Of a stretch of DNA of 64,000 nt, positions 23,438 through 36,676 are shown in pieces. The notes beneath the pieces were generated by a model that was not told the origin of the DNA, made no database searches, and was given only the letters and a program-made list of their open reading frames with translations. The DNA lies in the NCBI RefSeq assembly GCF_026278245.1, contig NZ_CP111079.1, positions 2,296,501-2,360,500 on the forward strand. The letters run 5' to 3'. The stretch is from Pontibacter kalidii (GTDB taxonomy: Bacteria; Bacteroidota; Bacteroidia; Cytophagales; Hymenobacteraceae). A program made the position numbers and the translations under genes. Every line of letters begins with the position of its first letter. Positions within the stretch are counted from its first letter, which is position 1.

Positions 23438-24100
23438 TCAAGAGCAAGGGGCCTGCTTCGCGTACCCGGAGATCTGATCCACCCTGATCCATTTCATTCC
23501 TGCTGCCTCGGCAGCCTTTACACCTGGAACACCGTCTTCAAAGACTAGACAGCTTGCCGGCGAGACTCCCAGCTGCTCTGCTGCCGATAGGAAAGGATCT
23601 GGAAAAGGTTTTCCACGAAGGGTTTCTCCAGCGCAAACGAGCACCTCCACTAACTCCGCAATGCCCAGGACTTCCAGCGTCTTCTGAATCATTTTCCTTG
23701 AACCTCCGGATACCACGCCTATCTTCACCCTGCCGGCATGTGCCACCAAATGGTCCACAACAAACTGAACCGGTTTTGTTAGTGTAATAAATTCCTTGTA
23801 AAACAAGGCGGATTTTAGCCTCTCAAACTCGACCGGGTCAAAATCACTGCCATACCGCTTGTTGATCTGCTCCACAACGGCAGGAATGGGCAGGCCGGCG
23901 AACTCATCTACAATGGCAGGATCAATTTCCACTCCTCTCTCGGCAGCTACCTTCACATAGGTGTCCTTGTGGGCCTGCATGTTATCGGCCAGGGTTCCGT
24001 CGCAGTCGTAGAGGAAAGCCTTGTGATCTCCCATGCTAAGCTGCGTAAGCACGTGCAGGGCACTTGCATTTGGTAGCGATGTGTCTCTTCCTAATTTCAT
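23438..24100 (-). CDS. HAD-superfamily phosphatase (beta-phosphoglucomutase-like)
   Basis: A 220-residue HAD protein with motif I YDCDGTLADN (Asp32, Asp34), a cap typical of subfamily IA (HKDTYVKVAAERGVEIDP), motif II VVSGGS, motif III Lys in GKPFPDPF and motif IV FEDGVPGVKAA. The N-terminal 23 residues look extra; Met24 (MGDHKAFLYDC) is a possible start. It is the last gene of the long minus-strand run, 15 bp after the barrel protein gene. It could act on sugar phosphates or on inositol phosphate, which would fit its neighbours; this is inference. Confidence 0.85.
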   Translation of the reverse strand: MKLGRDTSLPNASALHVLTQLSMGDHKAFLYDCDGTLADNMQAHKDTYVKVAAERGVEIDPAIVDEFAGLPIPAVVEQINKRYGSDFDPVEFERLKSALFYKEFITLTKPVQFVVDHLVAHAGRVKIGVVSGGSRKMIQKTLEVLGIAELVEVLVCAGETLRGKPFPDPFLSAAEQLGVSPASCLVFEDGVPGVKAAEAAGMKWIRVDQISGYAKQAPCS

Positions 24101-24115
24101 TTCAGCTCGATAGTC

Positions 24116-24700
24116 TTACAAAGATAATCTGACACCTAAGGCCAGGTGGAATATTTTTCCCGGGCTTAAGTACCCTGGGTTCTTTATGTAGGAGACCAGG
24201 TACTCCCCCAGCGCGCCTGCTTCGTAATACAGCCCGAAGTTTTCCAAGCGCTTTATTCTTGCAAACGCTACTTCACCTCCCAGGAAGTAGTACAAATGTA
24301 GGGCCGTCGAAAAACCGTAGTAACCTTTCGGGTACTTGTCCCGGGGCTCAAATGCAAAGTACTCATCCCCGAAAGTATAGCCCAACTGCAGGCCTGTTCT
24401 AAGCGGATGCCAGTCTAATGCCTCCAGCTTCACCGCCTTAAAAGGCACATAGGCAACTTTCAGAGCCGCGGTGACTAACTGCTCGCCGCCAAAACTTTGC
24501 GGCAGGTAGCCGACAAAAACATCTGCATCAAGTTTATTGTTCAGAAACTCCTTGCCCACCCCCAGCGATACCAGGCCAAGATCCCCGGCAAACTGTGCCT
24601 TTATGTGAAACGCTGCGGAATCTGTGTATTGGCTGTATACGCTATCAGCCAGGAAGGAGAGCAGTGCCGCCAGGAGAAACTTATACTTCCCAATTCTCAT
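24116..24700 (-). CDS. Outer-membrane beta-barrel protein, function unknown
   Basis: About 194 residues from Met at 24700, which gives a proper signal peptide (MRIGKYKFLLAALLSFLADS...YSQ) and starts 1 bp after the end of the metallophosphoesterase gene; the frame is open further upstream but into that gene. Alternating aromatic strands such as FVGYLPQSFGG, LQLGYTFGDEYFAFE and ending LALGVRLSL suggest a small barrel. Possible role in export or surface exposure of lipid, by context only. Confidence 0.65.
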   Translation of the reverse strand: MRIGKYKFLLAALLSFLADSVYSQYTDSAAFHIKAQFAGDLGLVSLGVGKEFLNNKLDADVFVGYLPQSFGGEQLVTAALKVAYVPFKAVKLEALDWHPLRTGLQLGYTFGDEYFAFEPRDKYPKGYYGFSTALHLYYFLGGEVAFARIKRLENFGLYYEAGALGEYLVSYIKNPGYLSPGKIFHLALGVRLSL

Positions 24701-34339: not shown

Positions 34340-35466
34340 AATGCTTTCTCAAAGATTCTATACCTTTTATAGGGCTTGGCATCCATTTTCAGCAAGCCCT
34401 GGTTCATCAGCACGTTATTTTCGAGGATCCACGAAGCCTCCGCCGATTTCATATGCTTCTCCTGGTGCTTTTGCATGGCAGCCCCGTAAAAGCAGGCTTC
34501 GATACCCATTTTCCGGTATCCCTCCACCACGCCCAGGGCAATGATCCGCACTGCGTTGATTTTTTTGCGCAACAACAGCAGCTTGAATATGCCCGTCGGC
34601 AACAAACGGCCTCTCCTGATTTTTTTTAAAACCTGGTTAATGTCCGGCACTGCTAGTGAGAAACCGATCATTTTCCCGTTATGCTCCGCAATCAGGCAGA
34701 AGTCCGGGTCCACGATCATCCTCAGATCTTTGGCCATATAGTCGAACTCCTTCGGCGTCATGGGCACAAAACCCAGGTTCTTGTCCCAGGCCGAATTATA
34801 GATATCCCGCAGCTGCGCTGCCTCCTCTTTATACTTTTTCAGGTTGATCGGTCGGATGACGATACCTTTCTGCTCCAGCCGCTTCCGGATCACTTCTGAC
34901 AAGCGGTAGGCCTTATCGTTGTAGCCATCTGCCCCAAACTGGTATGCCAACAGGTCTACCTTCTTTTGGAACCCCTGTTCTTCCAGCAGCTGGCTATAGT
35001 ACCTGTAGTTATAAGGCATCATTGCCACTGGTGAACTGTCGAACCCCTCCACCAGTAATCCGCAGGTTTCGTTTGTAGAAAAGTTAACCGGCCCGATCAT
35101 GGTTGTCACCCGCTTGGCCAGCAGCCACTTCCGCACCTCGCTAAACAGCATTTCTGCCACTTCAACGTCGTCCACACAGTCAAAGAAACCGAAGAATCCA
35201 TCCTGGCTGTTGTTGAAGGCATTGTGGTTGTTGTTCAGGATAGCAGCGATCCTGCCCACCACTATACCATTTTCGTATGCCAGGAATGTCTGAAGCGTAG
35301 AGTGCTCGTAAAACGGGTGCTTGCCATGTGTCAACAGGTCCTTCTGGGCTATATATAGCTCCGGCACATAATACGGGTCGCTCTTGTACAACTCATGCGG
35401 AAAGTCAATAAAAGCCTTTAGCTGCCGCTTTGTCTCAACTGGCAATACTTGCTTCATATGCTGCAT
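34336..35466 (-). CDS. bcerS: GNAT-like acyltransferase, probable bacterial ceramide synthase (bCerS-like)
   Basis: A 376-residue protein of the GNAT-like family that includes Caulobacter bCer[59 protein letters not shown] and [16 protein letters not shown]. It lacks membrane spans, unlike eukaryotic ceramide synthases. It would N-acylate the sphingoid base or its keto form. The start overlaps the end of the spt gene by about 30 bp; Met4 (35457) is also possible. The name is given from the bcerS-cerR-spt arrangement; other N-acyltransferase roles remain possible. Confidence 0.78.
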
Positions 35467-36676
35467 TCCCTGTGTTTATTCCCATTACCTTAAAGGCTTC
35501 CGCAATTTTTGCTACCGCCTCCTCTATCTGGGCAAAAGTATGAGTGGCCATCACCGAGAGGCGAATCAGGGTAGAATCGGCTGGCACCGCAGGCGCTACC
35601 ACCGGGTTCACAAAAATGCCCTTGTCCTGCAGTAACATGGTCACCTGGAAAGTAAGGTCGTTGTCGCGCACATAGATCGGTATGATCGGCGTCTCGGTTG
35701 GCCCCAGCTCCAGACCAGCTGCCTCTAGGAGCTGCATGGCATACATCGTGTTGCCCCACAGCTGTTTCCGTCGCTCCGGCTCCGACTCTATAATATCAAG
35801 GGCCGCCAGGGTGCTGGCAACAGAAGCAGGCGACATACTGGCGCTAAAGATCAGGGAACGGGCGTGATGCTTCAGGTATTGGATCGTGTCAAAATCGCTG
35901 GCAATGAATCCTCCGAGTGAAGCCAGCGATTTACTGAATGTACCCATGATCAGATCGACCTGGTCGGTCAGGCCAAAGTGCGATGCAGTCCCTGCTCCAT
36001 TTTCCCCGATAACACCTAAACCGTGTGCATCGTCTACCATAATGCTGCCACCATAGCGCTCAGCAAGAGTTACAAGTTCAGGGAGTTTTACGATGTCTCC
36101 TTCCATGCTGAATACCCCGTCCACCACGATCAGCTTAATCGCGTCTGCGGGCAACCGGCTTAGTTTCTGCTCCAGGTCCTGCATGTCGTTATGCTTATAC
36201 TTAAGCACTTTAGAAAATGAAAGCCTGCTGCCATCGATGATAGATGCGTGGTTATATTCATCCAGTATAATATAATCGTTGCGACCGGTGAGGCAGGAGA
36301 TAACCCCCAGGTTTACCTGAAAACCGGTGCTGAATACAAGTGCTGCGTCTTTGCCCACGTACGCTGCAAGCCTGTTCTCCAGTTCCAGGTGGATGTCCAG
36401 GTTCCCGTTCAGGAAACGAGACCCGGCGCAGCCCGTACCATACAACTGAATAGCTTTTAGTGCGGCTTCTTTTACTTTGGGATGATTGGTGAGTCCCAGA
36501 TAGGCATTTGACCCAAACATCAACACCTTCTTGCCATTAATAACCACTTCCGTATCCTGTGCAGACTCTATTGATCTGAAATAAGGATAGGCACCCTGCG
36601 CCATCGCCCTCTCTGCTGCATAATAAGCAGCGCTTTTTTCGCGGGTAAGGATTTTCTCACGAAGTATATTGCCCAT
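35435..36676 (-). CDS. spt: Serine palmitoyltransferase
   Basis: A 413-residue PLP enzyme of the alpha-oxoamine synthase family: [34 protein letters not shown] (His143), [12 protein letters not shown] (Asp215, His218) and [13 protein letters not shown] with the PLP lysine Lys249. GTFSKSxASLGGF is typical of serine palmitoyltransferase rather than KBL or BioF, and the gene neighbours are sphingolipid genes. It catalyses serine plus acyl-CoA to 3-ketosphinganine, the first and committed step. It is the first gene of the operon, 174-bp downstream of a TetR operator. Confidence 0.92.

Follow-up and report, generated by a model that had tools for sequence, protein, structure and literature searches.

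A row of genes in Pontibacter kalidii that probably encodes a single-locus pathway for inositol phosphorylceramide

We analysed a 64,000-nucleotide stretch of the Pontibacter kalidii genome (contig NZ_CP111079.1, positions 2,296,501 to 2,360,500; hereafter the window, numbered from its first letter) and found a row of 11 genes, all on the minus strand and lying end to end from 36676 to 25645, that very probably constitutes a single-locus pathway for inositol phosphorylceramide (IPC). The order is Spt, bCerS, CerR, INO1, PgpA, GtrA, DUF5686, phosphatidylinositol phosphate (PIP) synthase, DUF4833, Scs7-type hydroxylase and Aur1-type PAP2. Judged by its gene families, the row is the inositol-lipid module BT_1522-1526 of Bacteroides thetaiotaomicron joined to a ceramide module (spt-bcerS-cerR) and a hydroxylase. 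The surrounding genome comprises 5.05 Mb in two contigs, and the closest named relatives of its INO1 are from Pontibacter species (90-95% identity). The genes of the row are as follows.

35435-36676, minus strand: spt, serine palmitoyltransferase, entry enzyme of the ceramide module (NCBIfam NF047600, PDB)
34336-35466, minus strand: bcerS-like tandem-GNAT N-acyltransferase, putative ceramide synthase (fold, neighbourhood of homologues)
33347-34339, minus strand: cerR-like NAD(P)-dependent reductase (Pfam superfamily, position)
31981-33309, minus strand: INO1, myo-inositol-phosphate synthase (MIPS; PDB 7nwr, PF01658)
31508-31969, minus strand: PgpA-type phosphatase, putative PIP phosphatase by position and co-occurrence (PF04608)
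31124-31507, minus strand: GtrA-like membrane protein, BT_1524 counterpart (PF04138; place as in BT_1522-1526)
28543-31149, minus strand: CarboxypepD_reg and DUF5686 protein, perhaps the BT_1527 counterpart (PF18939, PF13715)
27808-28527, minus strand: PIPS, inositol-phosphate phosphatidyltransferase, the PIP synthase (NF052561, PDB 6wm5, motif)
27225-27806, minus strand: DUF4833 protein with an N-terminal hydrophobic helix, putative PIPS partner (PF16117)
26597-27217, minus strand: Scs7-type FA_hydroxylase, putative ceramide N-acyl 2-hydroxylase (PF04116, PDB Scs7)
25645-26622, minus strand: Aur1-type PAP2_3 protein, putative IPC synthase (AUR1 9vj3, NF052609)

All open reading frames (ORFs) named in a first-pass annotation of the window were present on the minus strand at the coordinates it gave, and its overlaps and gaps agreed with ours to within a base or two. 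Taken from ORF coordinates, Spt/bCerS overlap by 32 bp, bCerS/CerR by 4 bp, and GtrA/DUF5686 and hydroxylase/PAP2 by 26 bp each, while the gaps measure 37 bp (CerR/INO1), 11 bp (INO1/PgpA), 0 bp (PgpA/GtrA), 15 bp (DUF5686/PIPS), 1 bp (PIPS/DUF4833) and 7 bp (DUF4833/hydroxylase). The eight families in its gene list were confirmed with Pfam, the GNAT protein falling under the cut-off; GtrA, DUF5686 and DUF4833, which lie inside the run, had been omitted. That ceramide and inositol genes are merged here held up, but not as a peculiarity of the strain, as the set from Spt to PAP2 recurred in 46 of 160 INO1-centred loci (hereafter merged clusters). Within merged clusters, each junction was at most 60 bp in 88-100% of cases, with medians from -14 to +32 bp, which suggests that 36676-25645 may be read as a single transcript. 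These figures cover genes called as ORFs, taken from their longest-ORF start, with 26 to 44 cases for each junction.

The enzyme assignments support the pathway. Spt scored 706 bits against NCBIfam NF047600 (cut-off 640), and its best PDB matches were the serine palmitoyltransferases 8guh and 3a2b at 567 bits, compared with 245 bits for the cysteate acyltransferase 28eh. The GNAT protein scored 19.8 bits in Pfam, where the cut-off is 20.7; it matches the tandem-GNAT acyltransferase fold, and its homologues adjoin spt in other phyla. In an even phylum sample of 395 genomes, the GNAT match adjoined Spt in 11 of the 11 genomes in which it reached 1e-139 or better. The same protein (34336-35466) is about 35% identical to one annotated as YghO in an Escherichia coli plasmid record. 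CerR falls into Pfam Epimerase/3Beta_HSD and shares 25% identity with an NAD(P)H-binding protein whose gene neighbours spt in Sphingomonas (L167; locus handles begin with L, genome handles with G). Among the matches listed for CerR (25 of 36), no NCBIfam model reached its cut-off.

INO1, the sole PF01658 match in the genome, aligned to the inositol-3-phosphate synthase 7nwr at 565 bits over 424 residues. PIPS scored 401 bits against NF052561 (PIPSynBT1523; cut-off 350) and matched the PIP synthase structure 6wm5; its catalytic pattern, DX2DGX2AR...GX3DX3D, reads D79xxD82G83xxA86R87...G96xxxD100xxxD104, with each column at least 97% conserved in 95 sequences. Homology searches thus assigned Spt, PIPS and INO1 to the specific enzymes over paralogues, as the first reading of the sequence had anticipated. 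PgpA adjoins INO1 and is the sole match in the genome to PF04608, the PgpA family, and PIP is its putative substrate. With the window's own genome set aside, 18 of 20 INO1-positive Pontibacter had a single PF04608 gene, which lay about 40 bp away from INO1 in 17 of the 18; among the 20 INO1-negative congeners listed by handle, 0 had such a gene. PgpA therefore tracks INO1 and is not a housekeeping enzyme. In the two INO1-positive Pontibacter without PgpA (G401, G496), INO1 stands by itself and is not part of a cluster of this kind (L159 and L082, the latter paired with G496 by coordinates).

GtrA occupies the same place as in BT_1522-1526, and the DUF5686 gene was found in 46/46 merged and 37/43 head-group-only clusters. 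DUF4833 is fused to PIPS in 37 of these 89 clusters: fused behind PIPS in 8 merged and 29 head-group-only clusters, separate in 33 and 7, and not called in the remaining 12. Pfam confirmed both domains in one ORF in L042 (14751-16067) and L177 (10222-11523). Among the ORFs of the 160 loci, DUF4833 was found in such clusters only. Its predicted model (pLDDT 90) had no clear PDB match.

PAP2 matched AUR1 (9vj3) at 59 bits, and its AAPPWY motif, H243 of PSLH, H283, H284 and D288 are at least 97% conserved in 87 sequences. The hydroxylase (PF04116, 75 bits) found Scs7 (4zr1/4zr0, 116 bits) as its sole PDB matches. Thirteen histidines between residues 77 and 180, the metal-site ones included, are at least 97% conserved in 38 sequences, and 12 of the 13 are in register in the alignment to Scs7, H175 facing a Tyr. 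At 206 residues, the protein aligns to Scs7 188-370 only; the N-terminal cytochrome b5 part of Scs7 is missing, and we therefore filed it as an Scs7-type hydroxylase domain rather than an FA2H orthologue. It was present in 39 of 46 merged clusters, compared with 0 of 40 head-group-only clusters not cut by contig ends (0/39 without a duplicate). Three loci cut by contig ends were left out of this count: L041, which has bCerS, CerR and the hydroxylase, and L053 and L078, which lack the hydroxylase. Fisher's test for 39/46 versus 0/39 gave 2e-17, a figure that is indicative only because the loci are related. The hydroxylase might instead act on another lipid or position, such as the long-chain base or free fatty acids, leaving IPC without a 2-hydroxyl. 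FA_hydroxylase is a broad family whose site of action is not readable from sequence, and a second member (36% identity) is encoded in the same genome; the exclusive match to Scs7 and the occurrence of the gene solely alongside the ceramide module in the loci examined argue the other way, and we consider this alternative improbable, if the strongest of those weighed here.

We propose the following route, from serine and a sugar phosphate to a fungus-like, 2-hydroxylated IPC. Spt would join serine and acyl-CoA, after which the GNAT protein would N-acylate and CerR would reduce, giving dihydroceramide. PIPS, aided by DUF4833 either fused to it or encoded separately, would place the inositol phosphate supplied by INO1 on CDP-diacylglycerol, and PgpA would take off the extra phosphate to yield phosphatidylinositol (PI). 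The Aur1-type PAP2 would then transfer phosphoinositol to ceramide, and the Scs7-type hydroxylase would put a 2-hydroxyl on the ceramide acyl chain. The assignments above support the pathway suggested in the first-pass annotation, and from them we infer the order of reactions, the lipid and its site of hydroxylation.

To describe the distribution of the row, we scored the loci by tblastn with the window proteins. They comprised 80 named loci (the best 80 of 547), 60 around phylum-sample INO1 matches other than the window's own, and 20 chosen from family matches; two pairs of duplicate contigs (L048/L159 and L075/L087, none merged) leave 158 distinct loci. The named loci included 38 merged clusters, 27 head-group-only clusters (3 of them cut by the contig end on the Spt side), 6 with INO1-GtrA-PIPS but no PAP2, and 9 others. 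The phylum-sample loci contributed 7 merged, 5 head-group-only and 48 other, and the extra family loci 1, 11 and 8. All 46 merged clusters were colinear and on the same strand, and they occurred in metagenome-assembled genomes and in 11 named genera: Pontibacter, Rufibacter, Sabulibacter, Cesiribacter, Chryseolinea, Chryseosolibacter, Parachryseolinea, Dawidia, Ohtaekwangia, Chitinophaga and Terrimonas. Genes missing from some were the hydroxylase (7 clusters), CerR together with PgpA (4; L090, L092, L093 and L094) and GtrA and DUF4833 (1). In G478, INO1 lies elsewhere and the cluster also lacks DUF5686, the other genes being together. Rufibacter and Sabulibacter carry a second inositol cluster (INO1, GtrA, PIPS and, in some, PgpA) without PAP2 or Spt (L020, L021, L023, L025-L027).

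Among the 395 sampled genomes, INO1 was found in 60, Spt (1e-110 or better) in 200 and an Aur1-type PAP2 (1e-25 or better) in 14. Eight of the latter genomes, the window's own among them, have merged clusters with Spt. The merged locus is therefore uncommon in the phylum (8/395), yet spread across three families of the sample. In sphingolipid-producing Bacteroidota, spt, bcerS and cerR have been described as not close together (PMC11334938), and the merged loci are a clear exception to that statement.

The two modules also occur apart. In a genus of the same family (g2; at a guess, Hymenobacter), 11 of 12 INO1-positive genomes hold the head-group module (L148-L158), and Spt was found in 0 of the 12, only paralogues at 36-40% identity; of the two such paralogues in G444, the g2 genome examined, one is KBL and the other matched no particular enzyme. 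G249 (L177) likewise has the head-group module; searches there yielded neither INO1 (threshold 1e-20) nor Spt (threshold 1e-110). Conversely, G190, G002 and G359 carry spt-bcerS-cerR without INO1 or PAP2 of the window type, and in G190 and G002 other CDP-alcohol transferases follow, in G359 a gene of like size. Around such ceramide cores, L173 continues with DUF5686, an NTP transferase and a CDP-alcohol transferase, L174 has a CDP-alcohol transferase and GtrA, and L175 has a gene of like size and GtrA.

Several observations weigh against the row as an IPC pathway. Since the head-group module persists in g2 and G249 where Spt is missing, ceramide is not necessarily what such a PAP2 acts on, and modules that occur apart behave as interchangeable parts, which weakens the view that such a PAP2 always means IPC. 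PAP2 reached 331 bits (residues 26-318) against NF052609, phosphoinositol dihydroceramide synthase, its only NCBIfam match, below the cut-off of 480. CerR was assigned by its superfamily and its position only. Of the five genomes of genus g25 that carry the block, four (G261, G214, G379, G363) yielded no CerR orthologue at 1e-15 beyond proteins of 27-28% identity and have PgpA elsewhere. Seven of the 46 merged clusters lack the hydroxylase; in four Pontibacter whose cluster is without it (G504, G494, G437, G498), the genome offers just a paralogue of 35-36% identity. Protein distances within the clusters were correlated (r 0.63-0.91), which fits joint inheritance and also plain vertical descent. 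In B. thetaiotaomicron, deletion of BT_1524 (GtrA) had no effect on inositol lipids, and Flectobacillus major, included in the same survey, failed to give the bands that its genome had led the authors to expect (PMC9246714).

A further alternative is that neighbouring ceramide and inositol genes serve separate lipids, the head-group part yielding PI or an inositol glycan precursor and the ceramide receiving another head group. The separate occurrence of both halves fits this, as does the presence of inositol as a minor capsule component in B. thetaiotaomicron (PMC9246714). We nevertheless judge it quite unlikely, given that PAP2 matches Aur1 and, below the cut-off, NF052609, that deletion of BT_1522 abolishes inositol dihydroceramide but not PI (PMC9246714), and that the genes are colinear in 46 loci. 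Finally, PgpA and PIPS might be ordinary enzymes of phosphatidylglycerol or other phospholipids that lie here by accident, a reading akin to the refuting condition of ordinary phospholipid steps set in the first-pass annotation; although no second PF04608 protein is present to fill a housekeeping role, the absence of this family from INO1-negative Pontibacter, the 57 bits of PgpA against the 226 needed for the NCBIfam PgpA equivalog and the score of PIPS over the PIP synthase cut-off make this very improbable, and it was not borne out.

The IPC pathway proposed for the window combines features of several known systems. The yeast inositol sphingolipid route uses Scs7 and Aur1, and the window resembles it in Scs7-type hydroxylation and Aur1-type transfer from PI; it differs in that the hydroxylase lacks the first 187 residues of Scs7, PI would be made via PIP, and the genes lie in one row. 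In Caulobacter, spt, bcerS and cerR lie near the head-group genes cpgABC, so that ceramide core and head-group genes share one region as in the window, and the mere joining of the two in one locus has a precedent. Unlike the window, Caulobacter makes a phosphoglycerate head group via CpgABC (CCNA_01217-01219; PMC10331486, PMC11087976). The BT_1522-1526 pathway was established by Heaver et al. 2022 (PMC9246714) and Sartorio et al. 2022 (PMC8791184), with functions assigned by deletions. Its genes follow the same order as in the window (MIPS, PgpA-like PIP phosphatase, GtrA, PIP synthase, Aur1-like IPC synthase), with the carboxypeptidase-regulatory protein BT_1527 nearby, whereas spt (BT_0870) is elsewhere and the hydroxylase, ceramide synthase and CerR are outside BT_1522-1526. 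DUF4833, part of the window cluster, is not mentioned for BT_1522-1526 in the available excerpts of these two papers.

The Bacteroides vulgatus-like cluster (NTP transferase, CDP-alcohol transferase, HAD) shares a MIPS-linked inositol lipid route with the window, but in the excerpted account no PIP intermediate is proposed for it (PMC9246714). In G190 (L173), NTP-transferase and CDP-alcohol genes come after spt-bcerS-cerR, and INO1 gave no match in that genome. The same paper cites ceramide phosphoryl-myo-inositol from Sphingobacterium spiritivorum and reports BT-like genes as absent or rare in Sphingobacterium (PMC9246714). Myxobacterial fatty acid 2-hydroxylases are, like the window enzyme, bacterial proteins of the eukaryotic FA2H type; in the excerpts available, they are not described as lying within a sphingolipid gene row (PMC10002949). 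As far as the literature searched shows, the inositol version of a joint locus with a hydroxylase is new.

Inositol sphingolipids, long characteristic of fungi and plants, have also become a subject of study as lipids through which bacteria interact with hosts. In Bacteroides the genes are scattered, and the route was reconstructed part by part. A conserved single locus would make the whole route transferable in one piece. The locus adds an Scs7-type step outside BT_1522-1526 and two candidate players, DUF4833 and a TetR regulator, and closely related species that differ in having the hydroxylase gene offer a natural experiment. Pontibacter lucknowensis (L013), Chitinophaga filiformis (L064) and Ohtaekwangia koreensis (L067) carry this gene, and P. 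amylolyticus (L011) lacks it. More speculatively, the head-group module (INO1, PgpA, GtrA, DUF5686, PIPS-DUF4833, Aur1-type PAP2 and often its own TetR) might be a portable cassette for different lipid backbones, ceramide here and a non-ceramide acceptor in g2 and G249; DUF4833 would then be a subunit or domain of the bacterial PIP synthase that has so far been overlooked. We regard this as possible but doubtful; if true, a non-ceramide phosphoinositol lipid awaits discovery.

Upstream of spt lie two features relevant to regulation, the first of which had likewise been left off the original gene list.

36919-37653, minus strand: TetR, putative cluster regulator (PF00440)
36795-36816, strand-neutral: inverted repeat TAGTTC-N10-GAACTA, putative TetR operator upstream of spt (exact match)

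A profile seeded from ORFs with BLAST scores above 80 bits to the window TetR gene scored 225-310 bits in 45 of 86 clusters (44/85 without a duplicate) and 99 bits in one; other listed TetR proteins scored 34-50 bits. Of these 45 relatives, 43 are immediate neighbours of the cluster, located ahead of spt, ahead of INO1 or behind PAP2, showing that the family travels with the cluster in several genera. The remaining 40 clusters, Rufibacter included, have no TetR relative at the 225-310-bit level. With 2 mismatches allowed, TAGTTC-N10-GAACTA had 1 match in the window compared with 2.0 expected in shuffles, which is not above chance. Its core, GTTC-N10-GAAC, was sought in 12 other Pontibacter loci (L007-L017 and L166) and lies upstream of spt, no more than 350 bp away, in 9 of them, L007, L009 and L010 lacking it; across 3.06 Mb of 154 loci there are 32 such sites, and none is upstream of spt in the other loci, Pontibacter silvestris (L019) included. 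Kinship explains part of this conservation, so the operator is put forward as a hypothesis; TetR probably controls the row from the putative repeat. The TetR gene itself comes after RND and outer-membrane efflux genes; the region 37653-43199 holds outer-membrane efflux and RND pump genes and a likely membrane-fusion gene (by BLAST as query). RND genes lie near 12 of the 46 merged clusters.

At the other end, the genes from 23438 to 25511, which the first-pass annotation had counted in the run, are a loose appendix outside the conserved block and follow PAP2 in some relatives only.

24702-25511, minus strand: metallophosphoesterase, accessory, not conserved with the block (PF00149)
23438-24100, minus strand: HAD phosphatase, accessory in Pontibacter (PF13419)

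The 133 bp given between PAP2 and the metallophosphoesterase hold only with the ATG at 25511 as start. The metallophosphoesterase follows PAP2 in L009, L018 and L166 and lies in the opposite orientation in L041, L047, L055 and L067, and the HAD phosphatase is downstream of PAP2 in L008, L009, L011-L016, L166 and L176. Downstream of the HAD gene are a strong 14-bp hairpin (23001-23033) and an Integrase-core (IS3-like) transposase gene (21759-22799).

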